Positions 1,061 to 49,471 of a stretch of 64,000 nucleotides of DNA are shown here, one piece after another. The notes below the pieces were generated by a model, which did no database searches, had not been told where the DNA came from, and saw only the letters and a program-made list of their open reading frames with translations. How positions within the stretch are numbered: the stretch's first letter is position 1; every line of letters begins with the position of its first letter. The translations under genes were made by a program, and so were the position numbers. The stretch comes from Streptococcus mitis (GTDB taxonomy: Bacteria; Bacillota; Bacilli; Lactobacillales; Streptococcaceae): the NCBI RefSeq assembly GCF_901542415.1, contig NZ_CABEHV010000004.1, positions 372,001 to 436,000 of the forward strand, read 5' to 3'.

Positions 1061-1069
1061 TGCTATACT
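1061..1069 (+). promoter_or_regulatory. Extended -10 promoter of mutY, leaderless arrangement
   Basis: TGC TATACT at 1061-1069 is followed by 6 nt and the ATG at 1076, placing the expected transcription start on the start codon. No Shine-Dalgarno can precede this ATG in such an mRNA. The alternative start is Met11, whose upstream sequence also lacks a convincing SD. Confidence 0.65.
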
Positions 1070-1075
1070 AGAGAT

Positions 1076-2251
1076 ATGTTAGATTTGAAAGAATACGGTA
1101 TCGTCATGTGGCCGAAGGAGAAGATCATTTCTTTTCGTGAGAAACTTCTCAACTGGTATGATGAAAACAAAAGAGATTTACCATGGCGTAGGAGTAAGAA
1201 TCCTTATCATATCTGGGTCTCTGAAATTATGCTCCAGCAGACTAGGGTGGATACAGTTATTCCTTATTATGAACGATTCTTGGACTGGTTTCCAACAGTA
1301 GAAAGTTTGGCGAATGCGCCTGAAGAACGTTTGTTGAAAGCTTGGGAAGGTTTGGGTTATTATTCTCGAGTTCGTAATATGCAGGCTGCAGCCCAGCGGA
1401 TTATGTCTGATTTTGGTGGTCAATTTCCAAATACCTATGAAGGAATTTCTAGCTTGAAAGGAATTGGTCCTTACACAGCAGGAGCCATTTCCAGTATTGC
1501 TTTTAACTTGCCTGAGCCAGCTGTAGATGGTAATGTCATGCGGGTCTTGGCGCGTCTATTTGAAGTCAACTACGATATTGGAATTCCAAGTAATCGAAAA
1601 ATTTTTCAGGCAATGATGGAAATCCTGATTGACCCAGAACGGCCAGGTGACTTTAACCAAGCCTTGATGGACTTGGGCTCAGATATTGAGGCTCCTGTAA
1701 ATCCCAGACCAGAAGAAAGTCCAGTTAAGGACTTTAGTGCGGCATATCAGCATGGCACAATGAACCGTTATCCAATTAAGGCGCCTAAGAAAAAGCCTGT
1801 CCCAATTTATCTTAAAGCCTTGGTGGTCAAAAATACACAGGGACAATTTTTGCTTGAAAAAAATGAAAGTGAAAAGCTATTGGAAGGTTTTTGGCATTTC
1901 CCCTTGATAGAAGTTGATAACTTTTCGCAAGAAGAGCAGTTTGACCTCTTCCATCAGGTTGCAGAAGAAAGTGTGAACTTTGGTCCAAGTCCAGAGGAGA
2001 GTTTTCAGCAGGACTATGACTTAGATGTTGATTGGCTTGATATTTATTTTGAGACTGTCAAGCTAATCTTTAGCCATCGCAAGTGGCATGTTCAAATTGT
2101 AGCAGGTCAGGTGACTGACTTCCATGATTTTTCAGATAGAGAAGTTCGCTGGCTTTCACCAGAAGAGTTTAAGAATGTTCCACTTGCCAAACCCCAACAA
2201 AAAATCTGGCAGGCTTATGCACAAGCCAACTTAGGCAGTAGTAAAGACTAG
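1076..2251 (+). CDS. mutY: A/G-specific adenine glycosylase MutY lacking Fe-S ligands
   Basis: Removes adenine mispaired with 8-oxoguanine (GO base-excision repair). The N-terminal HhH-GPD domain (about 15-225) has E50 in SEIMLQQT, the GIGPYTAG hairpin near 129-136 and catalytic D151 in AVDGNVM. A NUDIX-like MutT recognition domain follows (about 240-385, WHFPLIEV to WHVQIVAG). Length 391 is normal. Oddity: the four cysteines of the usual [4Fe-4S] loop are E205, P212, S215 and S221 here, so this MutY should be iron-sulfur-free, as reported for some lactic acid bacteria. A BOX repeat and a leaderless-type promoter lie just upstream; vicR follows under its own promoter. Confidence 0.95.
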
Positions 2252-2254
2252 CTA

Positions 2255-2285
2255 TTGTGTCTTCTTTTTATTTTTTTGGTATAAT
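2255..2285 (+). promoter_or_regulatory. Promoter of vicRKX
   Basis: TTGTGT at 2255, a 19-nt T-rich spacer, and TGG TATAAT (extended -10) at 2277-2285. The leader is about 15 nt and includes an AAAGGTG RBS before the ATG at 2307. Confidence 0.6.
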
Positions 2286-2306
2286 AGTAGAGAAAAAGGT
2301 GAAGAA

Positions 2307-3014
2307 ATGAAAAAAATATTAATTGTAGATGATGAAAAACCAATCTCGGATATTATCAAGTTTAATATGACCAAGGAAGGTTACGAGGTTGTAACTGCTT
2401 TTAACGGTCGTGAAGCACTAGAGCAATTTGAAGCAGAGCAACCAGATATTATTATTCTGGATTTGATGCTTCCAGAAATCGATGGTTTAGAAGTTGCTAA
2501 GACAATTCGCAAGACAAGTAGTGTGCCTATTATCATGCTCTCTGCTAAAGACAGTGAATTTGATAAGGTTATCGGTTTAGAGCTTGGAGCGGATGACTAT
2601 GTAACCAAACCCTTCTCAAATCGTGAGTTGCAGGCGCGTGTTAAAGCTCTTCTTCGTCGCACGGACTTAGTTTCTGTAGATAATCAAGATTCAGATGAAA
2701 AGAAAACCCAACCTTTGCAAATTGGGGACTTGGAGATTGTTCCAGATGCCTACGTGGCTAAAAAATATGGTGAAGAACTAGACTTAACTCACCGTGAATT
2801 TGAGCTTTTGTACCACTTTGCTTCTCATATCGGTCAAGTGATTACGCGTGAACACTTGCTTGAAACGGTCTGGGGTTATGATTATTTTGGAGATGTTCGG
2901 ACTGTTGACGTAACCATCAGACGTTTACGTGAGAAGATTGAAGATACACCAAGTCGTCCAGAGTATATCCTAACACGTCGCGGTGTTGGTTATTATATGA
3001 GAAATAATGATTGA
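2307..3014 (+). CDS. vicR: Response regulator VicR (WalR)
   Basis: OmpR/PhoB-class regulator of cell-wall hydrolases and envelope genes; essential in pneumococcus. Receiver domain 1-118 with D8-D9, phosphoacceptor D52 ([10 protein letters not shown]) and K101 (TKPFSN); winged-helix DNA-binding domain about 135-232 ([24 protein letters not shown]). Length 235 is typical. First gene of vicR-vicK-vicX; its end overlaps vicK by 8 bp, implying coupled translation. Confidence 0.97.
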
Positions 3015-4356
3015 ATTTATTAGAAAAAATATTCTTACTAGTGATTTTATCTTCATTTTAATTTTATTGGGTTTTATCTTGATTGTTACCTTGCTTTTGC
3101 TAGAAAATCGGCGAGATAATATTCGGTTGAAGCAAATCAATCAAAAGGTAAAAGACTTGATTGCAGGAGATTATTCTCAGGTATTGGATATGCAGGGAAG
3201 TTCTGAAATCACTAATATTACCAATAATCTCAATGATTTATCAGAAGTAATCCGCTTGACTCAAGAAAATCTGGAACAAGAGAGTAAACGATTACACAGT
3301 ATCCTCTCTTACATGACAGATGGTGTCCTTGCGACCAATCGTCGTGGCAAGATTACTATGATTAATGACATAGCTAAGAAACAGCTAGGTGTTCAGAAGG
3401 AAGAAGTTCTCAATAAAAGTATTCTAGAATTGCTTAGGATTGAAGATGAGTATGAACTTCGTGATTTGATTACCCAAATTCCTGAACTCATGATTGATTC
3501 CCAGGATGCCAATGGTGAGTATCTGAGCCTTCGTGTACGCTTCGCCTTGATTCGTCGAGAGTCTGGCTTTATCTCAGGTTTAGTTGCTGTTTTACACGAT
3601 ACTACGGAGCAGGAGAAGGAAGAACGCGAACGAAGACTCTTTGTTTCTAACGTTAGTCATGAGCTGCGAACTCCTCTGACCAGCGTAAAATCCTATCTTG
3701 AAGCCTTGGATGAAGGTGCCTTGTCAGAACCTGTGGCACCAGACTTTATCAAGGTATCTCTAGACGAAACCAACCGTATGATGCGGATGGTGACAGATCT
3801 TCTCCATCTTTCACGTATTGATAATGCAACCAGTCATCTAGATGTCGAACTGATTAACTTTACTGCCTTTATTACCTTTATCCTTAACCGTTTTGATAAG
3901 ATGAGGGGATCAGATGAAGAGAAGAAATACGAATTGGTTAGAGATTATCCGATTACCTCTGTCTGGATTGAAATTGATACAGACAAGATGACGCAGGTGA
4001 TTGATAATATTCTCAATAATGCCATTAAATATTCTCCAGATGGTGGAAAAATCACAGTGACCATGAAGACGACTGATGATCAGATGATTTTGTCTATCTC
4101 AGACCAAGGATTGGGTATTCCTAAGCAGGATTTGCCACGTATTTTTGACCGTTTCTACCGTGTGGATCGTGCTAGAAGTCGTGCTCAAGGTGGTACCGGT
4201 CTAGGACTGTCTATTGCCAAAGAAATTATCAAACAACATAAGGGCTTTATTTGGGCCAAGAGTATATATGGTAAGGGATCAACCTTCACCATTGTGCTCC
4301 CTTATGATAAGGATGCAGTGAAGGAAGAAGTATGGGAGGACGAAGTAGAAGACTAG
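3007..4356 (+). CDS. vicK: Sensor histidine kinase VicK (WalK)
   Basis: Membrane sensor kinase that phosphorylates and dephosphorylates VicR. One transmembrane helix (about 12-33), a HAMP linker, a PAS domain (about 95-200), then HisKA with phosphorylated H218 (VSHELRTP) and the HATPase core ([28 protein letters not shown]). The single membrane span without a large extracellular domain is the streptococcal WalK type, unlike the two-span kinase of Bacillus. Length 449. Overlaps vicR by 8 bp and ends 1 nt before vicX. Confidence 0.97.
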
Positions 4357-4357
4357 A

Positions 4358-5167
4358 ATGAGTGAAACAGGCTTTAAATACAGTATTTTAGCATCGGGTT
4401 CCAGTGGAAATTCCTTTTATCTGGAAACCCCAAAAAAGAAACTTTTAGTGGATGCAGGCTTGTCTGGGAAAAAAATTACCAGCCTACTTGCTGAAATTAA
4501 TCGCAAGCCAGAAGATTTGGATGCCATCCTGATTACGCATGAGCATTCTGACCATATTCATGGAGTGGGTGTTTTGGCACGCAAGTATGGTATGGATCTT
4601 TACGCCAATGAAAAGACCTGGCAGGCTATGGAAAATAGCAAGTATCTTGGCAAGGTGGATGCCTCGCAAAAGCATATTTTTGAAATGGGCAAAACTAAAA
4701 CATTTGGAGATATTGATATTGAGAGTTTTGGTGTTAGCCATGATGCAGTCGCACCGCAGTTCTATCGATTTATGAAGGATGATAAGAGTTTTGTCATACT
4801 GACTGATACAGGTTATGTTAGTGATAGAATGGCAGGAATTGTCGAAAATGCAGATGGCTATCTTATCGAGTCCAATCATGATGTAGAGATTTTGCGAGCA
4901 GGTTCCTATGCTTGGCGACTCAAACAACGAATCCTATCGGATCTGGGTCACCTTTCTAACGAGGATGGTGCTGAAGCTATGATTCGTACCTTGGGAAACC
5001 GCACTAAGAGGATCTACCTTGGGCATTTATCTAAGGAAAACAATATCAAGGAACTGGCTCACATGACCATGGTTAATCAGCTAGCACAAGCTGATTTAGG
5101 TGTAGGAGTAGACTTTAAGGTTTACGATACCTCACCGGATACCGCAACACCATTGACAGACATATAG
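4358..5167 (+). CDS. vicX: Metallo-beta-lactamase-fold protein VicX (WalJ/YycJ)
   Basis: Third member of the vic operon. MBL-fold hydrolase with the metal-binding motif H61-x-H63-x-D65-H66 (THEHSDHIHG), further ligands in SHDAVAP and ILTDTGYVSD, and a late GHLS. WalJ proteins are proposed dsDNA exonucleases; the substrate here is not shown by sequence. Length 269 is normal. Located 1 nt after vicK, so it is surely co-transcribed; the terminator that follows closes the operon. Confidence 0.93.
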   Translation: MSETGFKYSILASGSSGNSFYLETPKKKLLVDAGLSGKKITSLLAEINRKPEDLDAILITHEHSDHIHGVGVLARKYGMDLYANEKTWQAMENSKYLGKVDASQKHIFEMGKTKTFGDIDIESFGVSHDAVAPQFYRFMKDDKSFVILTDTGYVSDRMAGIVENADGYLIESNHDVEILRAGSYAWRLKQRILSDLGHLSNEDGAEAMIRTLGNRTKRIYLGHLSKENNIKELAHMTMVNQLAQADLGVGVDFKVYDTSPDTATPLTDI

Positions 5168-5169
5168 AA

Positions 5170-5195
5170 AGAACGCTGAGAAGGTGTTCTTTTTA
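5170..5195 (+). terminator. Terminator of the vic operon
   Basis: GAACGC / GTGTTC stem with a 7-nt loop followed by TTTTT. Confidence 0.75.
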
Positions 5196-5197
5196 TA

Positions 5198-5226
5198 TTG
5201 ACTGAACACCTAAAAAGTAATACAAT
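5198..5226 (+). promoter_or_regulatory. Promoter of the relBE pair
   Basis: TTGACT, an exact 17-nt spacer, TACAAT. It lies just past the vic terminator, so the toxin-antitoxin pair is an independent transcription unit. Confidence 0.8.
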
Positions 5227-5257
5227 GGTGTTACTATTAAAAAAGGGAGTGCAAAAG

Positions 5258-5500
5258 ATGACTACTATTACATTAAAAGTTTCTGAAGCTGATAAAACAT
5301 TTATGAAAGCAATGGCTAAGTTTGAAGGAGTTTCCCTGTCGGAACTTATCCGCACCAAAACTCTTGAAGCTCTAGAAGATGAATACGATGCTCGTGTGGC
5401 AGATTTAGCCTATCAAGAGTATTTAGAAGACTTGGAAAAAGGAGTTGAACCCATTACTTGGGAAGAAATGATGCATGATTTAGGCTTGGAGGATGAATAA
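5258..5500 (+). CDS. relB: RelB-type antitoxin
   Basis: 80 residues. I start at the ATG at 5258 because GGGAG lies 8 nt upstream; the in-frame TTG at 5198 is the promoter -35 itself. The N-terminus (TLKVSEADKTFMKAMAKF) looks like a ribbon-helix-helix DNA-binding domain, and the acidic C-terminus (about 45-80) is the usual toxin-binding tail. It should neutralise the next gene's product and autorepress the promoter. Overlaps the toxin gene by 8 bp. Closely resembles the pneumococcal RelB2 antitoxin as I remember it. Confidence 0.9.
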   Translation: MTTITLKVSEADKTFMKAMAKFEGVSLSELIRTKTLEALEDEYDARVADLAYQEYLEDLEKGVEPITWEEMMHDLGLEDE

Positions 5501-5756
5501 TTTGTATAAATTAGTTCCAACAAGACGTTTCATCAAGCAATTGAAAAAATTGGATCGTTATACGCAGAAGATAATTACAAACTATTTACAAACCAATGTT
5601 TTGGAAGACCCAAGACGACACGGAAAGGCTTTGGTTGGTAATCGCGTTGGTCAGTGGCGCTATAGAATTGGTAATTATCGAGTTATCGTACAAATTGTAG
5701 ATGATGAATTAGTCATTGCTACTTTAGAAGTTGGTCATCGGAGAGATATTTATTGA
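5493..5756 (+). CDS. relE: RelE/YafQ-family mRNA interferase toxin
   Basis: 87-residue basic protein of the RelE/ParE superfamily, expected to cleave mRNA at the ribosome when the antitoxin is degraded. Visible: helices at 8-35, then the beta-sheet core with HGKALVGNRVGQWRYRIGNYR and the C-terminal VGHRRDIY, which carries the family's conserved basic and tyrosine residues. Intact length, no frameshift. Translationally coupled to relB by an 8-bp overlap. Confidence 0.9.
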   Translation: MNNLYKLVPTRRFIKQLKKLDRYTQKIITNYLQTNVLEDPRRHGKALVGNRVGQWRYRIGNYRVIVQIVDDELVIATLEVGHRRDIY

Positions 5757-5801
5757 ATTAAAGTTGAGTAATAACAGTATAGAAAGTGAGGAGTGTAAAA
5801 T

Positions 5802-6575
5802 TTGAAGAAAAAATGGTTTTTTGCAGATTATTATGATACAACAATTATTTTACTTGCTTTAATCTCTGTTATTCTGGTATTACTTGGATTTGCTGAGATG
5901 ATTGATTTAGACAGTCCTCCATACAGTATTATTGACTTGCTACTTTGGTTTGTGTTTGTGGTAGATTATGGTTGGCGGTTCTTTTCAAGTAAAGCAAAAT
6001 GGAGGTTTATACTTGAAAATATCTTTGACTTGTTAGCTATCCTTCCTTTAAATGCTATTTTTACAGTATTGCGATTAGGGCGTATCTTCCGCTTAGCAAG
6101 GCTGACAAAATTACTGAAACTGACTCGTTTACTTAGAATAATTGGACTTACAGGTAAATTAGAAACAAAAATTAGTAGATTCTTACGGACAAATGGCCTG
6201 ATTTATATCTTGTATGTTAATATTTTTATTGTTCTAGTAGGAAGTTCAATTTTATCTGTAGTTGAAGAAAAATCTTTCTCAGATAGTCTTTGGTGGGCTC
6301 TTGTGACAGTAACCACTGTTGGTTATGGTGATATTGTTCCAGTTTCCCTTTTTGGGAAATGGCTAGCTGTTTTATTAATGTTGGTAGGGATTAGTACAAT
6401 AGGAATGTTAACAAGTGCCTTGACGAACTTTTTTGTAAAAGATAATCCAGATGAACAGATAAAACTTGATAAACTCCAAGACGAATTATCGAGCCAAAGA
6501 ATATTAATAGAGAAGCAATCTGAGAAAATCGAAGAACTGCATCGGATGATACAAGATTTGCTTGAAAAAACGTAA
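5802..6575 (+). CDS. Voltage-gated-type potassium channel
   Basis: 257 residues. Starts at TTG 5802, with GTGAGGAG 7 nt upstream; the nearby ATG is out of frame. Six hydrophobic segments are suggested: S1 about 15-35, S2 about 44-60, S3 about 72-88, an arginine/lysine-rich S4 about 88-115 (RLGRIFRLARLTKLLKL), S5 about 130-152 and S6 about 185-208. The K+ filter TVTTVGYGDIVP lies at G174-Y175-G176-D177. The charged C-terminus (about 215-257) looks like a coiled coil. Family: Ion_trans / Kch. It has no metabolic link to its neighbours; transcription may continue from relBE, as no terminator separates them. Confidence 0.88.
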   Translation: MKKKWFFADYYDTTIILLALISVILVLLGFAEMIDLDSPPYSIIDLLLWFVFVVDYGWRFFSSKAKWRFILENIFDLLAILPLNAIFTVLRLGRIFRLARLTKLLKLTRLLRIIGLTGKLETKISRFLRTNGLIYILYVNIFIVLVGSSILSVVEEKSFSDSLWWALVTVTTVGYGDIVPVSLFGKWLAVLLMLVGISTIGMLTSALTNFFVKDNPDEQIKLDKLQDELSSQRILIEKQSEKIEELHRMIQDLLEKT

Positions 6576-6587
6576 TTTTGACCATTT

Positions 6588-6614
6588 AAAAACCACTCGA
6601 TGAGTGGCTTTTTT
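6588..6614. terminator. Bidirectional terminator between K+ channel and thioredoxin-like gene
   Basis: AAAAACCACTC GAT GAGTGGCTTTTTT: 6-bp GC-rich stem with an A-tract on one side and a T-tract on the other, between convergent genes. Confidence 0.8.
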
Positions 6615-6960
6615 ACAATCCTGCAAATTCTTTGATTTCTTGTGCTGACATTGAAGAGTCGCAACGGACATTGATTTGTCCATCCGCAATGTGAACGAAG
6701 CCTGGTACAGTTGGGATTCCGTAGCGTGAGCGGAATTCTTGCAACTCATTGAGTTGGCTTGGTTCTTCACTGTTGATGAAGTAGATGTGGGCTTTAGTTT
6801 CAGCTACGACACCTGCCAAGGTACCAGCAAATTTACGGCAGTAAGGGCAAGTTTTGCGACCGATAAAGAAGGTTGCAGTTTCTTTTTTATCAAGAGCTTC
6901 TTGCGCACGCGCAACTGTAGTGACTTCAAGGTCTTTGATATTATCTAAAAATTGTTCCAT
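6613..6960 (-). CDS. Thioredoxin-like protein (bacteriocin transport accessory type)
   Basis: 115 residues with a thioredoxin fold and a CPYC redox motif (RKTCPYCRKFAG, about 36-47), and the cis-proline segment GIPTVPGFVHI near 80-90. No signal peptide, so probably cytoplasmic. Resembles the streptococcal Bta family; its actual partner is unknown, and no bacteriocin gene is nearby. Upstream on the minus strand are a weak -10 (CATACT, 6991-6996) and a GCGAGG RBS. Confidence 0.8.
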   Translation of the reverse strand: MEQFLDNIKDLEVTTVARAQEALDKKETATFFIGRKTCPYCRKFAGTLAGVVAETKAHIYFINSEEPSQLNELQEFRSRYGIPTVPGFVHIADGQINVRCDSSMSAQEIKEFAGL

Positions 6961-7030
6961 GAGATTACCTCGCTTTCATTTATAAGTCTAGTATGCCATA
7001 AAGTTTCTAAAATTGCTTAGATTTGATACG

Positions 7031-7064
7031 AAAAAAAGATGAGATTGCTTGGTCTCATCTTTTA
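7031..7064 (-). terminator. Terminator of pgm (possibly bidirectional)
   Basis: AGATGAGA / TCTCATCT stem with an 8-nt loop. On the minus strand it ends in seven T's; the plus strand has a shorter T-run. Confidence 0.8.
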
Positions 7065-7071
7065 TAGGATT

Positions 7072-8908: not shown

Positions 8909-8937
8909 TTGAATGCCTTAGAGAAACATGCTATACT
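8909..8937 (+). promoter_or_regulatory. Promoter of the ABC-F gene, leaderless arrangement
   Basis: TTGAAT, 17-nt spacer ending in TGC, TATACT at 8932-8937, then 6 nt and the ATG at 8944. The transcription start should coincide with the start codon; no SD is present. Confidence 0.75.
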
Positions 8938-8943: not shown

Positions 8944-10845
8944 ATGATTATTTTACAAGCTAATAAAATTGAACGTTCTTTTGCAGGAGAAGTTCTTTTT
9001 GATAATATCAACCTGCAGGTTGATGAACGAGACAGGATTGCTCTTGTTGGGAAAAACGGGGCAGGTAAGTCTACTCTTTTGAAGATTTTGGTTGGAGAAG
9101 AGGAGCCAACTAGTGGAGAAATCAATAAGAAAAAAGATATTTCTCTGTCTTACCTAGCTCAAGATAGCCGTTTTGAGTCTGAAAATACCATCTACGATGA
9201 GATGCTTCATGTCTTTGATGACTTACGTCGGACTGAGAAACAACTTCGTCAGATGGAGTTGGAGATGGGTGAAAAGTCTGGTGAGGATTTGAATAAACTG
9301 ATGTCAGATTACGATCGCTTATCTGAGAATTTTCGTCAAGCAGGTGGCTTTACCTATGAAGCTGATATTCGAGCGATTTTAAATGGATTCAAGTTTGACG
9401 AATCTATGTGGCAGATGAAAATTGCCGAGCTTTCTGGTGGTCAAAACACTCGTCTAGCACTAGCTAAAATGCTCCTTGAAAAGCCAAATCTCTTGGTTTT
9501 GGACGAGCCAACCAACCACTTGGATATTGAAACCATAGCCTGGCTAGAGAATTACTTGGTAAACTATAGCGGTGCCCTCATCATTGTTAGCCATGACCGT
9601 TATTTCTTGGACAAGGTTGCGACAATTACGCTGGATTTGACCAAGCATTCCTTGGATCGTTATGTTGGCAATTACTCTCGTTTTGTCGAGTTGAAAGAAC
9701 AAAAACTAGCTACTGAGGCAAAAAACTATGAAAAGCAACAGAAGGAAATTGCCGCTCTGGAAGACTTTGTCAACCGCAATCTAGTCCGAGCTTCAACGAC
9801 TAAACGTGCCCAATCTCGACGTAAACAACTGGAAAAAATGGACCGCTTAGACAAGCCTGAAGCTGGCAAGAAATCAGCCAACATGACCTTCCAGTCTGAA
9901 AAAACGTCTGGTAATGTTGTATTGACTGTTGAAAATGCGGCTGTTGGCTATGATGGGGAAGTATTGTCAGAGCCTATTAACCTAGACCTTCGTAAGATGA
10001 ACGCTATTGCCATTGTTGGTCCTAACGGTATTGGTAAATCAACCTTTATTAAGTCCATTGTGGATCAGATTCCGCTTATCAAGGGAGAAAAGCGCTTTGG
10101 CGCCAATGTTGAGGTTGGTTACTATGACCAAACCCAAAGCAAGCTGACACCAAGTAATACGGTACTGGATGAACTCTGGAATGATTTCAAATTGACACCG
10201 GAAGTTGAAATCCGTAACCGTTTAGGGGCCTTTCTTTTTTCTGGAGATGATGTTAAAAAATCAGTTGGCATGTTGTCAGGTGGAGAGAAAGCTCGTTTGC
10301 TTTTGGCTAAATTGTCTATGGAGAACAACAACTTCTTGATTCTGGACGAGCCAACCAATCACTTGGATATTGATAGCAAGGAAGTGTTGGAAAATGCCTT
10401 GATTGACTTCGATGGAACTCTTCTATTCGTCAGCCACGACCGTTACTTTATCAATCGTGTGGCTACCCATGTTCTAGAATTGTCTGAGAATGGCTCGACT
10501 CTTTACTTGGGAGATTATGACTACTATGTTGAGAAGAAAGCAGAAGTAGAAATGATTCAAAGTGAGGAAGCTTCAACTAATAATCAAGTAAAAGAATCAA
10601 GTCCAGTTAATGACTACCAAGCCCAGAAAGAAAGTCAAAAAGAAGTTCGCAAACTCATGCGACAAATTGAAAATCTAGAAGCTGAAATTGAAGAGTTAGA
10701 AAGTCAAAGCCAAGTCATTTCTGAACAAATGTTGGAAACAAATGATGCCGGCAAACTCATGGAATTGCAGGCTGAGCTGGACAAAATCAGCCACCGTCAG
10801 GAAGAAGCGATGATTGAATGGGAAGAATTATCAGAGCAGGTGTAA
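8944..10845 (+). CDS. ABC-F family ATPase (ribosome-associated type)
   Basis: 633 residues from the ATG at 8944; the longer frame from 8884 would start inside the promoter. Two ABC domains without membrane segments: Walker A GKNGAGKST (about 37-45) and GPNGIGKST (about 360), signatures LSGGQNTRLALAK and LSGGEKARLLLAK, Walker B LLVLDEPTNHLDIE and FLILDEPTNHLDID. A charged linker (about 240-300) separates them and a coiled-coil tail follows (about 555-633). This is the YdiF/Uup-like architecture; ABC-F proteins act on ribosomes in translation or antibiotic protection. Overlap-free but only 2 nt from rgg, so likely co-transcribed with it. Confidence 0.92.
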   Translation: MIILQANKIERSFAGEVLFDNINLQVDERDRIALVGKNGAGKSTLLKILVGEEEPTSGEINKKKDISLSYLAQDSRFESENTIYDEMLHVFDDLRRTEKQLRQMELEMGEKSGEDLNKLMSDYDRLSENFRQAGGFTYEADIRAILNGFKFDESMWQMKIAELSGGQNTRLALAKMLLEKPNLLVLDEPTNHLDIETIAWLENYLVNYSGALIIVSHDRYFLDKVATITLDLTKHSLDRYVGNYSRFVELKEQKLATEAKNYEKQQKEIAALEDFVNRNLVRASTTKRAQSRRKQLEKMDRLDKPEAGKKSANMTFQSEKTSGNVVLTVENAAVGYDGEVLSEPINLDLRKMNAIAIVGPNGIGKSTFIKSIVDQIPLIKGEKRFGANVEVGYYDQTQSKLTPSNTVLDELWNDFKLTPEVEIRNRLGAFLFSGDDVKKSVGMLSGGEKARLLLAKLSMENNNFLILDEPTNHLDIDSKEVLENALIDFDGTLLFVSHDRYFINRVATHVLELSENGSTLYLGDYDYYVEKKAEVEMIQSEEASTNNQVKESSPVNDYQAQKESQKEVRKLMRQIENLEAEIEELESQSQVISEQMLETNDAGKLMELQAELDKISHRQEEAMIEWEELSEQV

Positions 10846-12966: not shown

Positions 12967-13021
12967 GTTTACTTGGACTTCAAAATAATTCCAATCTAAG
13001 TGTTTTTTCCGCCCTTCTCGT

Positions 13022-15016
<1,995 letters not shown>

Positions 15017-25172: not shown

Positions 25173-25615
25173 CCAAACCATTTTTTCCAGAAGGATGTTT
25201 TGGCTGGTTCTTCCTTTTTAACTTCCCAAAGTTTTGCAAAAGCAAGTCGAAGGTTCTTTTCTTCTACTTGAACTGGTGCATTGGTGTGGATAATAAGGCC
25301 AAAAGGAGAAGAAGTATGCTCTTCAGATACAATGGTAGCTTGACTATCAGTTTCTTTTGCTTCTTTTAAGTAGAAAACTTGTTTGTCAAATTCGATATTT
25401 GGTGAAATCTTCACAAATAGTGGTTCTGCTTTTTCCTGAAGATTTTCTAAAATAGATAAAAAGCCTTTTTCTAACTGAGGGCTATTTGCTGTGTCAATAT
25501 CTGCATATCCAAGAACTCTTTCCTCAAAAGTGCCAAGATAGCGTCTTTGCTCATCTGGATTTAATTTTGGCCCACCATGAGCTTTTTCAAGTAATTGTTT
25601 TGATAAATCTGTCAT
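25169..25615 (-). CDS. DUF1694 (YueI-like) cytoplasmic protein
   Basis: 148 residues, no signal peptide or membrane helix. Resembles the YueI/DUF1694 family, widespread in Firmicutes and of unknown function: [22 protein letters not shown] near the N-terminus (about 13-34) and a central beta-rich part. Convergent with glxK, overlapping by 4 bp, and divergent from eno. Confidence 0.8.
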
Positions 25616-25655
25616 GAAAACAGTATATCATAAAAGTTAGAATAAAACAGATAAA

Positions 25656-31561: not shown

Positions 31562-31570
31562 TGATATAAT
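31562..31570 (+). promoter_or_regulatory. Extended -10 promoter of ribF, leaderless arrangement
   Basis: TGA TATAAT, then 6 nt and the ATG at 31577; the -35 (TTCCAG) is poor and there is no SD. Confidence 0.65.
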
Positions 31571-31576: not shown

Positions 31577-32494
31577 ATGATTATTACTATTCCTATAAAA
31601 AATCAAAAAGATATTGGCACACCATCCGATTCGGTCGTTGTTCTCGGCTATTTTGATGGTATACATAAGGGACATCAAGAACTATTTCGTGTTGCCAACA
31701 AGGCTGCGAGAAAGGATTTATTGCCTATCGTAGTTATGACCTTTAATGAATCTCCAAAGATTGCTTTAGAGCCTTATCATCCGGATTTGTTTTTGCATAT
31801 TTTGAACCCTGCTGAGCGTGAAAGAAAATTAAAGCGTGAAGGTGTAGAAGAATTATATCTCCTTGATTTTAGTAGCAAATTTGCTAGTCTCACAGCAGAA
31901 GAATTTTTTGCGACTTATATTAAGGCTATGAATGCTAAAATTATTGTTGCAGGTTTTGATTATACATTTGGTTCTGACAAAAAAACGGCAGAAGATTTAA
32001 AGAATTACTTTGATGGAGAAGTTATCATTGTTCCACCTGTAGAAGATGAGAAAGGAAAGATTAGTTCAACTCGTATCCGTCAAGCTATTTTAGACGGAAA
32101 TGTGAAAGAAGCAGGAGAACTTTTGGGGGCACCGCTTCCATCAAGAGGTATGGTGGTTCATGGCAATGCTCGTGGTCGTACGATTGGTTATCCAACAGCT
32201 AATTTGGTGCTTTTAGACCGTACTTATATGCCAGCAGATGGTGTTTATGTCGTTGATGTTGAGATTCAAAGACAGAAGTATCGTGCTATGGCTAGTGTTG
32301 GGAAAAATGTGACCTTTGATGGAGAAGAAGCACGTTTTGAAGTCAATATTTTTGATTTTAATCAAGATATTTATGGGGAAACAGTCATGGTTTATTGGCT
32401 TGATCACATTCGAGATATGACCAAATTTGACTCAGTTGACCAATTAGTGGATCAGTTAAAGGCTGATGAAGAAGTAGCTCGGAATTGGTCTTAA
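31577..32494 (+). CDS. ribF: Riboflavin kinase / FMN adenylyltransferase RibF
   Basis: Bifunctional enzyme converting riboflavin to FMN and FAD. 305 residues: N-terminal FAD synthetase with VVLGYFDGIHKGHQ (HxGH-like, about 21-34) and ISSTRIRQAI near 163-172; C-terminal riboflavin kinase with GRTIGYPTANL (about 196-206) and the later DFNQDIYGE. Full length. No FMN riboswitch upstream. Predicted leaderless mRNA. Confidence 0.95.
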   Translation: MIITIPIKNQKDIGTPSDSVVVLGYFDGIHKGHQELFRVANKAARKDLLPIVVMTFNESPKIALEPYHPDLFLHILNPAERERKLKREGVEELYLLDFSSKFASLTAEEFFATYIKAMNAKIIVAGFDYTFGSDKKTAEDLKNYFDGEVIIVPPVEDEKGKISSTRIRQAILDGNVKEAGELLGAPLPSRGMVVHGNARGRTIGYPTANLVLLDRTYMPADGVYVVDVEIQRQKYRAMASVGKNVTFDGEEARFEVNIFDFNQDIYGETVMVYWLDHIRDMTKFDSVDQLVDQLKADEEVARNWS

Positions 32495-36291: not shown

Positions 36292-36300
36292 AATAGATAA

Positions 36301-36334
36301 AAATCTGATTACAAGAGAGTAGTCAGATTTTTTT
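36301..36334 (+). terminator. Terminator of ccdA1-etrx1
   Basis: AAATCTGATTAC / GTAGTCAGATTTTTTT hairpin. Confidence 0.88.
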
Positions 36335-36413
36335 AGAAAATTATTTTATAAATATTCACAATTCTCCTATATTTATGGTAAAATAGAATCATCATTTTAT
36401 TTTGGAGTCAAAG

Positions 36414-42004: not shown

Positions 42005-42082
42005 GTTTATCCTATTAAATCAATATGATGTAAGAGTCAGTAGCAATACTGGCTTTTATTTTTTTAAAATGACATAAAAATC

Positions 42083-42111: not shown

Positions 42112-42112
42112 A

Positions 42113-42148
42113 TTTACTGGTTAATTAAATGGTTAAATAACCGGTTTA
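42113..42148 (+). promoter_or_regulatory. Three abutting AdcR boxes upstream of phtE
   Basis: TTTACTGGTTAA (42113-42124), TTAAATGGTTAA (42125-42136) and ATAACCGGTTTA (42137-42148) fit TTAACYRGTTAA to different degrees and are joined end to end from the -10 into the leader. A further half-match (CTGTTTAACC) follows about 10 nt on. Confidence 0.78.
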
Positions 42149-42215
42149 GAAAAACTGTTTAACCGATAAAAAGAAGTTAAGAAAAAGCTTCATCATTTAT
42201 TGAAATGAGGGATTT

Positions 42216-45200
42216 ATGAAATTCAGTAAAAAGTATATAGCAGCTGGATCAGCTGTTATCGTATCCTTGAGTCTTTGTGTCTATGCACTGAACCAGCATC
42301 GTTCGCAGGAAAATAAAGACAATAATCGTGTTTCTTATGTGGATGGCAGCCAGTCAAGTCAGAAAAGTGAAAACTTGACACCAGATCAGGTTAGCCAGAA
42401 AGAAGGAATTCAGGCTGAGCAAATTGTCATCAAAATTACAGATCAGGGCTATGTGACGTTACACGGTGATCACTATCATTACTATAATGGGAAAGTTCCT
42501 TATGATGCCCTCTTTAGTGAAGAACTTTTGATGAAGGATCCAAACTACCAACTTAAGGATGGAGATATTGTCAATGAGGTCAAGGGTGGTTATATCATCA
42601 AGGTCGATGGAAAATATTATGTTTACCTGAAAGATGCAGCTCATGCTGATAATGTTCGAACCAAAGATGAAATCAATCGTCAAAAACAAGAACACGTCAA
42701 AGATAATGAGAAGGTCAGCTCTGATGTTGCTATAGCAAGGTCTCAGGGACGCTATACGACAGATGATGGTTATGTCTTTAATCCAGCTGATATTATTGAA
42801 GATACTGGTGATGCTTATATCGTTCCTCACGGAGGACACTATCACTACATTCCAAAAAGTGATTTGTCTGCTAGTGAATTAGCAGCCGCTAAAGCTCATC
42901 TGGCTGGTAAAAATACGCAACCGAGCCAGTTAAGCTATTCTTCAGCAGTTAGTGACAATAACACGCAATCTGTAGCACAAGGCTCAACTAGCAAGCTAGA
43001 AAGCAAAGTTGAAAATCTCCAAAGTTTATTGAAAGAACTCTACGATTCACCTAGCGACAAACGTTACAGTGAATCAGATGGTCTGGTCTTTGACCCTGCT
43101 AAGATTATCAGTCGTACACCAAATGGAGTTGCGATTCCGCATGGTGACCATTATCACTTTATTCCTTACAGCAAGCTCTCTCCTTTAGAAGAAAAGATTG
43201 CTAGAATGGTGCCTATCGGTGGAACTGGTTCTACGATTTCTACAAATGAAAAACCTAATGAAGTAGCGTCTAGTCTAGGAAGTCTTCCAAGTAATCCATC
43301 TATATTGAATAATGCTTCTTCAACGTTAAATAAGGAAATTCCTTCAACATCTGATGGTTATATCTTTAATCCTAAAGATATTGTCGAAGAAACTGCTACA
43401 GCTTATATCGTCAGACATGGTGATCATTTCCATTACATTCCTAAGTCGAATCAAATTGGACAACCGACTCTTCCAAACAATGGTCTAACAACACCTTCTC
43501 CATCTCTTCCAATCAATCCTGGTGTTTCACATGAGGAACATGAAGAAGGTGGACACGGCTTTGATGCTAATCGTATTATTGCGGAAGATGAGTCAGGATT
43601 TATCATGTCACATGGTGACCATAATCATTACTTCTTCAAGAAGGACTTGACAGCAGACCAAATCAAGGCAGCGCAAGACCACTTGAAAGGGGTAAATGCA
43701 GCAACACCAAATCCAGTTCATGATGACGATCACGATGAAGATCATCATGGACATCATCATGATGAAGACCATGATCACGGTTTTGATGCCAATCGTGTCA
43801 TCAGTGAGGATGAACAAGGCTTTGTCATGAGTCACGGCGACCATAATCATTACTTCTTCAAGAAGGATTTGACAGCTGATCAAATCAAGGCAGCGCAAGA
43901 CCACTTGAAAGGGGTAAATGCAGCAACACCAAATCCAGTTCATGATGACGATCACGATGAAGATCATCATGGACACCATCATGATGAAGACCATGATCAC
44001 GGTTTTGATGCCAATCGTGTCATCAGTGAGGATGAACAAGGCTTTGTCATGTCACATGGAGATCACAATCATTACTTCTTCAAGAAAGATTTGACAGCAG
44101 AGCAAATTAAGGCAGCTCAGGATCATTTGAAAACACATCATGATGCAGAGCCTGTAAAACCTCTTGCTAAAACGGTAGAGTCTTTCTCAAAAGATGCTAG
44201 CGATGAAGAAAAGATTGCTTATATCTCTAAAACTTATGGTGTTCCACTTGAAGCGATTAGAATTTCAAACGGATTCTTTGTCTTTGGAAATCCAGACCAA
44301 GCCTACGATCCAACTCATATCCACCCATATGCTGTTCGTAAGGAACATGTTCGTTTGCCACTCCAAACTGGCAATCCAGAACTTGATTTCCTAAACGAAC
44401 TCTATACCACTGCTTTGCGAGATGGTGTGTCTCCTTATAGCTTACAGGTAGAAAATGGTAGTTTTGTGATTCCTCATGGCGACCATAATCACTACATCAA
44501 GGTTCAAACGAAGGGCTATGAAGTAGCTTTGAAAAACAAGATTCCAGCCCTACAATCCAATTATCAACCTGGAGCTTTTGATGAGAAGGCAGTCTTGGAA
44601 AAAGTAGATCAACTTCTAGCTGATAGCAGAAGTATCTACAAAGACAAGCCTATCGAACAAAGACAGATTGAGTTAGCCTTAGGTCAGTTTACTGAAAACA
44701 TGAAGAAACTGGCAACTAACTCTACAGCAGGTTATCTTGCAACACTGGATCTCTTTGATAAGCAATATATCCATATTGATGAAAGTGTCAAACCTGTTGA
44801 AACAAGCGCTCTAGATAAGAAATATCAGGCCTTGATTGATAAAATCAATACCTTGGATACAGACTCTTATGGACTTCCTAAGAAAGACCTTCTCGTTCGA
44901 CTCCAAGAAGCTAAATTGGCTAAAGATGAGGCTGCTTTAGTAGCGGTTGAATCACAACTTCAAGCTCTTCAAGACTTTAATGATCGAACAGGTGTTACAA
45001 CTGTAGAATACATCAAGTACTTCTACGAACACGTAAATGACGGTCGTTTGAGTGATGAACTTCGAAACAAAGTAGCTCAGTTGACTTGGACCTTGTATCA
45101 ATCTCAATCCTTCCTTAAGGCAGCAGAATTGAACAAATTATTCCCAAGTATCTATCAGGCAAAACAAGAAGTGGAAGAAGCTTTGAAAGCTCAGCCAACT

Positions 45201-45983
45201 ACTGCGAAATCAAGTCAGACAGTTCTAGATACTGAAAAAGTTGATAATCAAAGTGCCAAGACAGCTATTTATGGCTTCTTGAAAGAATTGTACGGAGACT
45301 TTATGCCTGAAGAGCATGTGAATCATGTCAGCAAGGAACAAGTAGAAAATCTCTTGAGCAAGGCAAATCAACTCTTGGAACAAATCCAAGAAGAAGGAAT
45401 CAGACAATCCTTGGCAGAAGAAGTAGAAAATCTCAAAGTTGCTACAAACAAGGCTGATGCAGACTTGGATGAAGTAAATAGTCAGGTAAAAGATGTATTG
45501 ACTCGTATCGCTAGCGCCCTTCAACAAGAGAAAGAAAATGCAGAGCAAGATCCTCAGACACTTGTACTCTATCAAAAACTTTACGATATCCTCATGTCAC
45601 TTCACGCTTACTTAGAAAACAATAAGGGTTCTGATGAGGACTTTGATAAGGTAGATGCTTTACTAGATCAACTTTCTGCTAAGAGTAAAGATAAGGCTGC
45701 TTTACTTGAATTGACAAAAGCTATTCTGATCTTGAATCAAGAAATCAAGTCAAAATCAAGCGCAAGTGAAGAAACAACTCCAGCAACAAATGCCGAGGCA
45801 AATGGTGATAAGACAAGTGCTGAGAACCAACCAAACGCAGCTGCAGAATCTAACAGTGAAACTGCCAGCGACGAAAACAAACCGAGCAACTCAACAGATT
45901 CTAAACCTGCTGAATCAACTTCAGAAAAGGAAACAACAGAATCTACAACAAGTACTGGAAATCAAGAAAAACCAGCAGAATAA
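42216..45983 (+). CDS. phtE: Histidine triad protein PhtE-like, expanded
   Basis: Surface zinc-binding protein, 1255 residues; pneumococcal PhtE is about 1039 with six triads. N-terminal export segment like phtD. HxxHxH motifs start at H83, H205, H309, H401, H466, H540, H614 and H754 (eight). Residues about 447-640 hold three 74-residue units separated by His/Asp-rich linkers (HDEDHHGHHHDEDHDHG). Long helical C-terminal half (about 780-1190) and a Ser/Glu/Thr-rich, low-complexity tail without LPXTG. Leader of about 98 nt with GAGGGA RBS. Last gene of the zinc locus. Confidence 0.92.
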   Translation: MKFSKKYIAAGSAVIVSLSLCVYALNQHRSQENKDNNRVSYVDGSQSSQKSENLTPDQVSQKEGIQAEQIVIKITDQGYVTLHGDHYHYYNGKVPYDALFSEELLMKDPNYQLKDGDIVNEVKGGYIIKVDGKYYVYLKDAAHADNVRTKDEINRQKQEHVKDNEKVSSDVAIARSQGRYTTDDGYVFNPADIIEDTGDAYIVPHGGHYHYIPKSDLSASELAAAKAHLAGKNTQPSQLSYSSAVSDNNTQSVAQGSTSKLESKVENLQSLLKELYDSPSDKRYSESDGLVFDPAKIISRTPNGVAIPHGDHYHFIPYSKLSPLEEKIARMVPIGGTGSTISTNEKPNEVASSLGSLPSNPSILNNASSTLNKEIPSTSDGYIFNPKDIVEETATAYIVRHGDHFHYIPKSNQIGQPTLPNNGLTTPSPSLPINPGVSHEEHEEGGHGFDANRIIAEDESGFIMSHGDHNHYFFKKDLTADQIKAAQDHLKGVNAATPNPVHDDDHDEDHHGHHHDEDHDHGFDANRVISEDEQGFVMSHGDHNHYFFKKDLTADQIKAAQDHLKGVNAATPNPVHDDDHDEDHHGHHHDEDHDHGFDANRVISEDEQGFVMSHGDHNHYFFKKDLTAEQIKAAQDHLKTHHDAEPVKPLAKTVESFSKDASDEEKIAYISKTYGVPLEAIRISNGFFVFGNPDQAYDPTHIHPYAVRKEHVRLPLQTGNPELDFLNELYTTALRDGVSPYSLQVENGSFVIPHGDHNHYIKVQTKGYEVALKNKIPALQSNYQPGAFDEKAVLEKVDQLLADSRSIYKDKPIEQRQIELALGQFTENMKKLATNSTAGYLATLDLFDKQYIHIDESVKPVETSALDKKYQALIDKINTLDTDSYGLPKKDLLVRLQEAKLAKDEAALVAVESQLQALQDFNDRTGVTTVEYIKYFYEHVNDGRLSDELRNKVAQLTWTLYQSQSFLKAAELNKLFPSIYQAKQEVEEALKAQPTTAKSSQTVLDTEKVDNQSAKTAIYGFLKELYGDFMPEEHVNHVSKEQVENLLSKANQLLEQIQEEGIRQSLAEEVENLKVATNKADADLDEVNSQVKDVLTRIASALQQEKENAEQDPQTLVLYQKLYDILMSLHAYLENNKGSDEDFDKVDALLDQLSAKSKDKAALLELTKAILILNQEIKSKSSASEETTPATNAEANGDKTSAENQPNAAAESNSETASDENKPSNSTDSKPAESTSEKETTESTTSTGNQEKPAE
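43554..44132 (+). repeat. Tandem 222-bp repeats in phtE (2.6 units)
   Basis: Units start at 43554, 43776 and 43998 (CACGG followed by TTTGATGC). Units 1 and 2 share long stretches of identical DNA, including the whole AAAGGGGTAAATGCAGCAAC linker part; units 2 and 3 share the GATGAACAAGGCTTTGTCAT part. In frame: 74 codons each. Confidence 0.9.
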
Positions 45984-45987
45984 AAAG

Positions 45988-46020
45988 AAAGGCGAAGTAG
46001 CTAAGCTACCTCGTCTTTTT
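45988..46020. terminator. Bidirectional terminator between phtE and pepT
   Basis: AAAGGCGAAGTAGC TAA GCTACCTCGTCTTTTT; A-tract and T-tract on opposite sides, between convergent genes. Confidence 0.85.
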
Positions 46021-47242
46021 AGTCTTTATAAGCTACGATACCAATGATGGTATCAACTGCACGTTCCATGGTCTGAAGACTGACGTATTCAAAACGTCCA
46101 TGCATATTTTCTCCTCCCGCAAAGATATTAGGAGTTGGGATTCCCATAAAGGAAATCTTAGAGCCGTCTGTCCCTCCACGGATTGGTTCGATTATAGGAG
46201 TAATCCCCAAATCTTCCATAACGGCTTTAGCAATGGTAATTGGAGTCATATCTTTTTCAATGACTTCTTTCATATTATAGTACTGATCTGTTAAGTTTAG
46301 GGTGACACGGTCGCTACCAAGTTCTTGATTCATCTTATCAGCGATAGACTGCATTGCTGCTTTACGAGCTTCAAAGGCATTTTTTTCAAAATCACGAATG
46401 ATGTAGTTTGCACTCGCCTCTTCGACACTACCTGTCACATCCATAAGATGATAGAAACCTTGGTAGCCATCAGTTAACTCAGGTCGGTCATTCTCTGGAA
46501 GTTGATTATGAAAATCAATTGCTAGCTGGAGGGCGTTGACCATTTGCCCTTTGGCAGTACCAGGGTGGACATTACGTCCTTGGAAATGCACTTCAGCCCC
46601 AGCTGCTGAGAAGGTCTCGTACTGAAGTTCGCCCAGTGGACCACCATCAACAGTGTAGGCAAAATCCACATCAAAATCATCTGCATCAAATTTATTAGCA
46701 CCAACACCGATTTCCTCATCTGGACCAAAACCAACACGAATCTCACAGTGTTTGATTTCAGGGTGAGCAGTTAGATATTCAATGGCTGTCATAATCTCAG
46801 CAATACCAGACTTGTCATCAGCCCCTAGCAAGGTTGTTCCGTCGGTTGTGATGAGCGTTTGTCCTGGATATTTTTCAAGACTCTTGAAGTCGGCTGGATC
46901 TAGTTTAAAACCAGAATTTCCTAGTTCAATCACACCACCATCGTAGTTTTCAATTACCTGGGGATTAACTCCTTCGGCATTAAAGTCAGCAGTATCCATG
47001 TGAGATATAAAGCCAATCTTACGTGTTAAAGATGGATCATTGGCTGGTAAGGTCCCAATTGCAAAACCATTTGGTAGATAATAAACATTTTGTAATCCAA
47101 CACGTTTCATTTCAGGAATAAGAACATTTGTAGCAAAATCTACCTGACTCTGCGTACTTGGAGTAGTAGTAGAGCGTTCATCAGAGCGCGTGTTGACCTT
47201 AACGTAGGTTAAGAAGCGGTCCAAGAGATTTGGATAAGTCAT
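46019..47242 (-). CDS. pepT: Peptidase T (aminotripeptidase)
   Basis: Zinc metallopeptidase (M20B) releasing N-terminal residues from tripeptides in the cytoplasm. 407 residues: SHMDTADF (about 77-84) and [12 protein letters not shown] with the metal-bridging Asp, GFGPDEEIG with catalytic Glu, [25 protein letters not shown] and a late GGTDGS. RBS AAGGAG. Minus-strand promoter TTGTTT-17-TACAAT lies at about 47270-47300. Confidence 0.95.
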
Positions 47243-47395
47243 AAAAAACTCCTTTTGAATTCATTTTTTCCATTGTATCATAGAAAAGAGAGAAAAACAA
47301 AAGACTGAAGTTAGGGAAATTCACTATGTTGGCGTTTACTTATTAATGAATTAATGATAAAATAAACTTGATAAAAATATCACAAGGAAGCAATT

Positions 47396-48490
47396 ATGAA
47401 AAAAGCAATTTTAATGATGACTTTCGGTTCGCCAGAAGAGATTACCTTTGAAGGTGTGGCTGATTTTTTCACAAATATTCGTCGTGGAGTGAGACCTCAA
47501 GACCACGAGATTCAAACTCTCTATGATAATTATGTACTAATTGGAGGGACGCCTCTGCAAAGAATTACGCGCGAAGAGGTTGCCTTGGTAGAAGCTAGGC
47601 TAGGAAATGAATATAGTGTCTATTTTGCCAATAAGTTTTCTAGACCCTTTATCCTAGACGTGATTGGTCAGATGGAAGCAGACGGAATCGAGCAATGTAT
47701 TTGTTTGATTTTGGAGCCTCATTATTCTTTTTACTCTGTCATGGGTTATGAGAAATTTTTAGAAAGCAAGCAAATTCAGTTTTTGGTCATTAAGGACTGG
47801 TATCAAGAAGAGGCCTTGCTAAACTATTGGGCAGATGAAATTACTAAGATTTTAAAAGATGAAGTGAAGCAAGATAGCTTTAAAGTCATCTTTTCAGCCC
47901 ATAGTGTACCTATTTTTGCCTTGGATTTTGGTGACCCCTATATCGACCAAATTTTTGAAAATAGCAAGTTAGTCGCTGAAAAACTAGGCTTGAGTTCAGA
48001 GCAATATACTAACACTTGGCAGAGTGAAAGTGATATCGGGATTCCATGGATTAAGCCAGATGTCTTGGAGTATCTCAGAGAACAGAAAGAACATCCAGAC
48101 CATTATATTTTTGTTCCCATCAGCTTCATTAGCGAGCATATTGAAGTCTTGTTTGACAATGATGTGGAATGTTATGACTTATGTCAGGAATTTGGGGTAA
48201 ACTACCATCGTCCACCAATGCCAAATACAGATTCTCGTTTGATTGATGCCTTGGTTAATACAGTCAGAGCTAATGAGGACAAAGAGTTTAAGGAATTTCT
48301 CCCAGAAGAAGAAACCTTTGATGAGTTAGTTCCTTCAGATGAGACTAAAAATATCTTGGCCGAATCTCAAGATTTACAAATGCCGGAATTTGTGAAAAAA
48401 CTGATTGAGAAAAAAGGTCGTGAAAATGTTAAGATGCCTTATCTTATTAAGAAAATGCTTGAGAAAGCAGGCAAGTTACCGAAAGAGTAA
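47396..48490 (+). CDS. hemH: Ferrochelatase-family protein HemH
   Basis: Inserts Fe2+ into a porphyrin. 364 residues, chelatase fold: N-terminal [34 protein letters not shown] and the conserved histidine H169 in FSAHSVP, then [15 protein letters not shown] and [12 protein letters not shown]. Residues after about 300 form an unusual charged extension. Streptococci lack the rest of the haem pathway, so its substrate must come from outside or its role differs. RBS CAAGGAAG. Confidence 0.9.
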
Positions 48491-48496
48491 AAAGAA

Positions 48497-48527
48497 AAAA
48501 GGATTTAGCTTTGTGCTAGATCCTTTT
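48497..48527. terminator. Bidirectional terminator between hemH and mscL
   Basis: AAAAGGATTTAGC / GCTAGATCCTTTT stem between convergent genes. Confidence 0.8.
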
Positions 48528-48533
48528 AATCGA

Positions 48534-48920
48534 TTATTTTTTCTCAAGAAGAGCTTTGATTTCTTGAAGTACTTCCAACTCAGTTGGACCAGCTGGAGCT
48601 TCCTCAGTAGCTTCTTCTTTCTTAGTAAGGCTTTGAGCTTTTTCAATACCTTTGATAACGAAGAAGAGAACAGTACCGATAACTAGGAAGTTGATCACAG
48701 CGCTCAAGAATTTACCATATGTAACACCATTCCAAGCAAGCTCAGCGATGTTTTGTACTTTCGCAGCTTCCAAGGCTGGATTCAAAATAAGTGGAGTGAT
48801 GATATCGTTAACAAGTGATGTAACGATTGCACCAAAAGCAGTGGCAATGATCACACCGACAGCAAGGTCAACAACGTTACCACGAAGCAAAAATGCTTTA
48901 AGATCTTTTAACATTTTCAT
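48534..48920 (-). CDS. mscL: Large-conductance mechanosensitive channel MscL
   Basis: Opens on membrane tension to protect against osmotic downshock. 128 residues from the ATG at 48920 (AAAGGAA RBS); Met3 is a possible alternative start. N-terminal amphipathic FLLRGNVVDLAVGVIIATAF (pore helix TM1), TSLVNDIITPLI, TM2 about 72-95 and a charged coiled-coil tail. Confidence 0.95.
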   Translation of the reverse strand: MKMLKDLKAFLLRGNVVDLAVGVIIATAFGAIVTSLVNDIITPLILNPALEAAKVQNIAELAWNGVTYGKFLSAVINFLVIGTVLFFVIKGIEKAQSLTKKEEATEEAPAGPTELEVLQEIKALLEKK

Positions 48921-48979
48921 AATTTCCTTTCAAAAAATTCTTACACTTAATTATATATTAATTAAGAAGTTCTTGCAAG

Positions 48980-49432
48980 CTATATGTTTAAATTTTTTCT
49001 TATTTTTTTAAAAATAAATACCTTACTAAAAATGTAATTGAGGATAATTATCAAGAATTGTGCAATAACTGTTTCAATACTGTTTACCCTATTAATATTA
49101 TTATTTACAAATTGCCCGATAATATTAGGAAACTGAGTTACAAAGAGAAAAGTTAAAAACAAGTCTAAAAGAAAAGTAGAAAGACGTGCTAGAGTAAATT
49201 TCACTAAACGGATTGGCCAATTCTGCCTAGCTTGCTTAAATACAATTGTATCATTTGTGATAAAAGCAAATAGGATACCGATACTATTTGCTAGTCCAGT
49301 TGCAAGGAGTTCTCTATGAGTTAGTTGATAAATGACTAATCGGGATAGAATCGAAACAAGAGTAGTTGCTATACCAAAAAAGAGGTAGGCAAAGAGTTCA
49401 TTATCCAAGAGAATTTGAATACATTTTTTCAT
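48980..49432 (-). CDS. GtrA-family membrane protein
   Basis: 150 residues with four hydrophobic helices. GtrA-like proteins are proposed flippases or accessory proteins for lipid-linked sugars; no glycosyltransferase gene is adjacent, so the function here is open. Landmarks: YLFFGIATTLVSILSRLVIY near 16-35, FAFITNDTIVFKQ near 55-67, ending NYIFSKVFIFKK. Predicted leaderless start at 49432. Confidence 0.85.
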   Translation of the reverse strand: MKKCIQILLDNELFAYLFFGIATTLVSILSRLVIYQLTHRELLATGLANSIGILFAFITNDTIVFKQARQNWPIRLVKFTLARLSTFLLDLFLTFLFVTQFPNIIGQFVNNNINRVNSIETVIAQFLIIILNYIFSKVFIFKKIRKNLNI

Positions 49433-49438
49433 GCTTTT

Positions 49439-49471
49439 AGTATAGCATAAAGCAGGCTATTGTGCTATACT
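49439..49471. promoter_or_regulatory. Divergent extended -10 pair for gtrA (-) and queT (+)
   Basis: AGTATAGCA ... TGCTATACT is a perfect 9-bp inverted repeat with a 15-bp gap. The left arm is the minus-strand -10 for gtrA (6 nt from its ATG, leaderless), the right arm (49463-49471) the plus-strand -10 for the preQ1 leader. Neither has a good -35. Confidence 0.7.

Follow-up and report, generated by a model that had tools for sequence, protein, structure and literature searches.

Six genes in a 64,000-nucleotide (nt) stretch (C4:372001-436000, hereafter the window) of a 2.155-Mb genome from the Streptococcus mitis group carry promoter elements whose distance from the start codon predicts messenger RNAs with no leader. 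The genes, mutY, an ABC-F family gene (abcF), ligA, a DUF1694 gene, ribF, and gtrA, each have an extended -10 box whose hexamer ends exactly 6 nt before the ATG, a spacing that we call N6 (Table 1). We give a probability of about 0.88 to the reading that these are sigma-A extended -10 promoters, placed so that transcription would start on the A of the ATG and yield leaderless mRNA. RNA polymerase at such a promoter would begin on this A, the transcript would lack both a leader and a Shine-Dalgarno (SD) sequence, and initiation would most likely occur by direct binding of the 70S ribosome, possibly assisted by initiation factor 2 (IF2), to the 5'-terminal AUG, in line with earlier work cited in PMC6431027. 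The distance between box and ATG is probably fixed because other short distances would leave a leader of a few nt, too short to accommodate an SD. The assignment to the S. mitis group comes from the ligA comparison, in which Streptococcus sp. M334 and S. mitis strains were the closest named relatives at 97%.

An earlier note on this DNA had described TGn followed by TATACT, TATAAT, or TAAAAT, exactly 6 nt, and ATG at mutY, abcF, ligA, ribF, and gtrA. The sequence agrees at all five, but the set was incomplete: a pattern search revealed an exact site on the minus strand (25630-25613) at the DUF1694 gene, which had been overlooked. In all six cases, ATG is the start codon and TGn adjoins the hexamer. 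None of the six starts, including the five for which the absence of an SD had already been noted, is preceded within 20 nt by an SD-like string (AGGA/GGAG/GAGG class). The accompanying statement was that most other genes have an SD; in a permissive test with free choice among start codons, 43 of the 56 called genes in the window do so. The best -35 candidates of the six promoters share just 2 to 4 of the 6 bases of TTGACA, as is to be expected of extended -10 promoters.

Table 1. Promoter elements, genes, and neighboring features in the window; +1 positions are predicted.
Feature	Coordinates	Strand	Details
mutY extended -10	1061..1069	+	TGC-TATACT, spacer AGAGAT; +1 at 1076
mutY, A/G-specific adenine glycosylase, 391 amino acids (aa)	1076..2251	+	TIGR01084, 324.6 bits (cut-off 286.5)
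abcF extended -10	8929..8937	+	TGC-TATACT, spacer ACTTGT; +1 at 8944
abcF, ABC-F family ATPase, 633 aa	8944..10845	+	NF000355, 463 bits (cut-off 380)
ligA extended -10	13043..13051	+	TGG-TAAAAT, spacer GGTTTT; +1 at 13058
ligA, NAD-dependent DNA ligase, 652 aa	13058..15016	+	NF005932, 879.9 bits (cut-off 369)
DUF1694 gene extended -10	25622..25630	-	TGA-TATACT, spacer GTTTTC; +1 at 25615
DUF1694 protein, 148 aa	25169..25615	-	PF07997, 100.4 bits (cut-off 25); divergent from enolase
ribF extended -10	31562..31570	+	TGA-TATAAT, spacer TATTTT; +1 at 31577
ribF, riboflavin kinase/FAD synthetase, 305 aa	31577..32494	+	NF004158, 524 bits (cut-off 396)
gtrA extended -10	49439..49447	-	TGC-TATACT, spacer AAAAGC; +1 at 49432
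gtrA, GtrA-family membrane protein, 150 aa	48980..49432	-	PF04138, 62.4 bits (cut-off 26.1)
Terminator-like hairpin	13011..13034	+	directly ahead of ligA; T-rich tail extends into the ligA promoter
queT extended -10	49463..49471	+	TGC-TATACT; back to back with the gtrA promoter; long leader
preQ1-II riboswitch	49461-49557	+	in the queT leader; RF01054

Orthologous starts were compared across one draw of 40 Streptococcus genomes, which provided 39 loci each for abcF and DUF1694 and 38 for gtrA. At abcF, N6 is present in all 39 genomes (with TG in 31), and the spacing stays constant while TATACT, TAAAAT, TATAAT, TACAAT, and TAGAAT interchange among the orthologues. N6 together with TG was found at ligA in 39 of the 40 genomes, and all 80 named ligA loci, which span 39 distinct upstream sequences, likewise have N6 with TG. 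For mutY and gtrA, N6 with TG occurs in 32/40 and 32/38 genomes, with gaps of 5 or 7 nt in a further 3 and 2, respectively; for the DUF1694 gene, it occurs in 30/39. ribF, with N6 in 23 of 40 genomes (16 with TG) and a gap of 5 or 7 nt in 8, is the weakest of the six predicted leaderless cases. The SD-led control walR did not have N6 in any of the 40 genomes. The columns of TG and box carry 1.59 bits in abcF, 1.78 in ligA, and 1.18 in mutY, whereas those from -45 to -19 carry 0.27, 0.22, and 0.24 bits, so that constraint falls mainly on the box, its spacing, and the ATG. A common -35 element or operator was considered and rejected, as no shared signal appears in columns -45 to -19; gtrA is the exception, with a conserved block there that mirrors the queT promoter.

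The 6-nt spacing also stands out statistically. With at most one mismatch, TGNTATAMT-N6-ATG matches the window 8 times compared with a shuffle mean of 2.93, and 8 matches were reached in 2 of 100 shuffles. Among 385 genes predicted by a simple gene caller in 464 kb (the window plus 20 spaced stretches; gtrA was missed by the caller), seven have a gap of 6 nt between TGn-TAWAHT and an in-frame ATG, five of them in the window, whereas each of the remaining gap lengths between 0 and 18 nt has 0-2 cases. The genome-wide search proposed in the earlier note, run as TGNTAWAHT-N6-ATG, yielded 37 matches in this genome and 20 for the reversed pattern. Six of the 37 fall in the window, which covers 3% of the genome (Poisson P about 0.001) and was picked for study on account of its local richness in such sites. 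Across the 40 genomes, TGNTATAAT-N6-ATG occurs 950 times, as opposed to 211 times with a control gap of 12 nt that leaves the reading phase unchanged (N12); the reversed N6 and N12 patterns occur 23 and 37 times. Taken with the conservation among orthologues, the excess of N6 over N12 bears out the claim that the shared geometry is unlikely to be due to chance. RNA polymerase usually prefers a pyrimidine just before a purine start. Among the sites listed, position -1 is a pyrimidine at 94 of 121 distinct N6 sites but at 39 of 118 N12 sites (Fisher P 3e-12), and a first count on part of them gave 82/104 and 19/58; this fits a transcription start on the A of the ATG.

Outside the window, the pattern leads to a wider set of genes. 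In this genome, 27 of the 37 N6 matches open reading frames (ORFs) of at least 60 aa, six in the window and 21 elsewhere. They include pbp2a (L396), which serves as a positive control, ruvB, uvrC, rlmB, tsaE, murT, pabB, ftsK, tex, genes for a SpoU-family methyltransferase and an RsuA-type pseudouridine synthase, and L388, which we take from its sequence to be plsY. A second positive control, holA (L452), was recovered in genome G011. We inspected 40 further N6 sites, 23 of the 25 from genome G012 (excluding those of abcF and gtrA) and the first 17 of the 25 from G011 other than abcF. Thirty of the 40 open ORFs of at least 60 aa, and 13 of these 30 are homologous to the set found in our genome (blastp E <=1e-8). 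Two sites in G012 (L429/L430, C1:166586-166634) lie divergently, 13 nt apart, and open pbp2a and a gene for a PseudoU_synth_2 protein; they possibly represent a divergent pair of leaderless genes.

DNA replication and repair together with RNA modification account, in a narrow count, for 8 of the 27 N6 genes of our genome compared with 2 of 41 leadered genes (Fisher P 0.011). The 8 do not include FtsK, Tex, or three methyltransferases of unspecified type, and L377 was counted as other. Among the new genes from G011 and G012, the share is 6 of 17, compared with the same 2 of 41 (Fisher P 0.006), the six being an RlmH-type SPOUT methyltransferase, a PseudoU_synth_2 protein, DNA polymerase I, DNA polymerase III delta, RecX, and TatD. 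The 41 leadered genes share the promoter type and were narrowed down from 57 by requiring a more stringent box and at least 90 aa, whereas 60 aa sufficed for the leaderless ones. Pfam thresholds varied among the scans (1e-5, 1e-6, and 1e-10), and 3/41 leadered and 2/17 new genes had no family match. TatD counts on both sides, being SD-led in our genome and leaderless by pattern in G011, and in one control gene, RexB/AddB-like (L006:6793), a box precedes an upstream ATG by 8 nt; this control may be close to leaderless, too. A bias of the leaderless class toward DNA-repair and RNA-modification genes is thus suggestive and post hoc, a lead rather than a result, because the category was chosen after the list from our genome had been seen. 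In the literature searched, supplements excluded, we found no published functional bias of streptococcal leaderless genes, which does not prove that there is none.

The earlier note had proposed that the leaderless genes are a low-level housekeeping set that perhaps responds together to ribosome state or initiation factors, and a similar speculation for streptococci is found in PMC6431027. In this explanation, the genes form a co-regulated set whose translation shifts jointly with the ribosome pool or initiation factors under stress, kasugamycin, or cold. The conserved membership seen in the two other genomes and the lean toward DNA repair and RNA modification are in its favor. Set against these are the choice of the functional class after the fact, the DUF1694 gene, which is SD-led in some genomes, and the finding that a ribosome binding site (RBS) introduced into leaderless pbp2a left its output unchanged in S. 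pneumoniae (PMC6212727), so that we regard a co-regulated set as unlikely. We are equally doubtful about the broader idea that leaderless initiation is a genus-wide, gene-specific trait concentrated in DNA-repair and RNA-modification enzymes, which would give them a shared translation route and let them be shifted jointly when 30S-dependent initiation is impaired.

It is very improbable that translation starts at a later SD-led in-frame codon or at an upstream start, leaving the ATG behind the box unused. Two local features would allow it: codon 5 of ligA is a second in-frame ATG, kept in 77 of the 80 named loci, and in this genome an in-frame GTG lies 20 codons ahead of the abcF start. However, the second ligA ATG is GTG or ATA in the other 3 loci while the first is kept in 80/80, and no SD-like string precedes the second ATG in this genome. 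The abcF frame extends only three codons further upstream in five relatives (open frame of 636 aa), and a longer frame would include the promoter. Alignments begin at residue 1 in 39/39 genomes for abcF, 39/40 for mutY, 37/40 for ligA, and 34/39 for DUF1694, but in only 14/40 for ribF and 26/38 for gtrA. Other starts are accordingly rejected for the first four genes and less firmly for ribF and gtrA. Very little weight can likewise be given to the boxes being chance TA-rich strings with the real promoters further upstream: the window is AT-rich (39.7% GC), and single matches can be chance, as 10 of the 37 own-genome matches open ORFs shorter than 60 aa (all six window ORFs are longer), but the N6 versus N12 comparison and the conservation lead us to reject AT-richness as the source, the excess being specific to the N6 spacing, the box a conserved island amid divergent upstream sequence, the 20 nt before the starts devoid of SD-like strings, and position -1 a pyrimidine.

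Several observations weigh against leaderless transcription of the six genes. The gap at ligA is 9 nt in genome G035. At the chosen start, neither box nor SD is present for mutY in 5/40 genomes, and the box is missing for gtrA in 4/38 and for ribF in 9/40. Conservation of the TG and box columns is weaker in DUF1694 (1.06 bits), gtrA (1.11), and ribF (0.82), compared with 0.54 in the control. The DUF1694 gene is SD-led and lacks the N6 box in 9 of 39 genomes (G004, G011, G012, G015, G018, G020, G032, G035, and G036), in each of which a TATAAT-like hexamer lies 24 to 40 nt ahead of the ATG. These genomes may illustrate how a gene leaves the leaderless state, by a promoter that moves further back and the gain of an SD. 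Furthermore, the six start sites rest on sequence and conservation rather than on mapped 5' ends, and leadered transcripts could also arise by read-through from genes further upstream. Weighed against these points, leaderless transcription appears well supported by the genus-wide geometry, the pyrimidine at -1, and the recovery of pbp2a by the same pattern.

The surroundings of ligA and gtrA hint at how such promoters arise and are arranged. Outside Streptococcus, the order was represented by 69 genomes, and we examined ligA in 20 of them, which belong to other families. None of the 20 has an N6 box at this gene; an SD-like string lies within the 60 nt ahead of the aligned start in 19, and an upstream frame that ends in API-x-K/Q and a stop, presumably the end of pcrA, is likewise present in 19. 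From this arrangement, Streptococcus ligA seems to have left an operon and acquired a minimal promoter, and operon breakage may be an origin of leaderless promoters. At gtrA, two near-identical promoters diverge, and the gtrA message looks leaderless whereas the queT message has a long leader. The mirrored block TATAGCA lies ahead of gtrA in 29/38 genomes, with queT established as the neighbor in the window only. For abcF, the Uup, EttA, and named resistance models shown all scored under their cut-offs. The window also contains matches to two small RNAs, asd/MarS (RF01732) at 50374-50516 and SpF36 (RF02433) at 36295-36344, both on the plus strand.

The comparison of starts across the genus has two practical consequences. 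The DUF1694 gene, with leaderless and SD-led states within one genus, would provide a natural series in which to study what keeps a gene leaderless, and the conserved geometry gives firm start codons for annotation. By the title of a 1995 report by Sabelnikov, the extended -10 alone is said to direct transcription of the DpnII operon of S. pneumoniae, and transcription of this restriction-modification operon reportedly starts on the first codon.

Leaderless mRNAs are established in streptococci; in S. pneumoniae, S. agalactiae, and S. pyogenes, 8-9% of operons or mRNAs are of this type (PMC6212727, PMC4448216, PMC6431027). The six genes thus belong to a known kind, of which they are new instances or ones perhaps already contained in published tables of transcription start sites (TSSs). 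In S. pneumoniae D39, transcription of 70 of the 768 operons begins precisely at the first base; pbp2a is one of the leaderless genes, and a reporter fusion showed its translation without an RBS (PMC6212727). cpoA of S. pneumoniae was found to be leaderless by rapid amplification of cDNA ends (RACE) and fusions, and its -10 region is kept in S. mitis and S. oralis (PMC3901891). The leaderless mRNAs of S. agalactiae NEM316 all begin with AUG, 90% starting on the A, and 39 are common to three species, from which the authors already inferred selection (PMC4448216, PMC6431027); holA is leaderless in S. agalactiae (PMC4448216). The accounts consulted mostly count leaderless genes, whereas our comparison follows individual promoters and shows a spacing that is constant to the exact nucleotide (abcF 39/39, ligA 39/40) amid upstream turnover.

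The leaderless operons of S. pneumoniae D39 resemble our six genes in their -10 or extended -10 element, the start at the start codon, and the lack of room for an SD, and pbp2a occurs in both sets; they differ in that their TSSs were mapped, whereas we predicted ours from sequence and conservation in a different mitis-group genome (PMC6212727). Likewise, the work on S. agalactiae NEM316 and S. pyogenes S119 was based on TSSs, whereas ours rests on a comparison of the spacing of six genes across 40 genomes (PMC4448216, PMC6431027). Finally, the TA-led genes that Zheng et al. (2011) described in the Lactococcus-Streptococcus clade resemble ours in having a Pribnow-like box roughly 12 bp ahead of the start codon, preceded in Lactococcus by a TG peak; they were called statistically at genome scale, whereas the six genes described here were compared with their orthologues gene by gene (PMC3160421).

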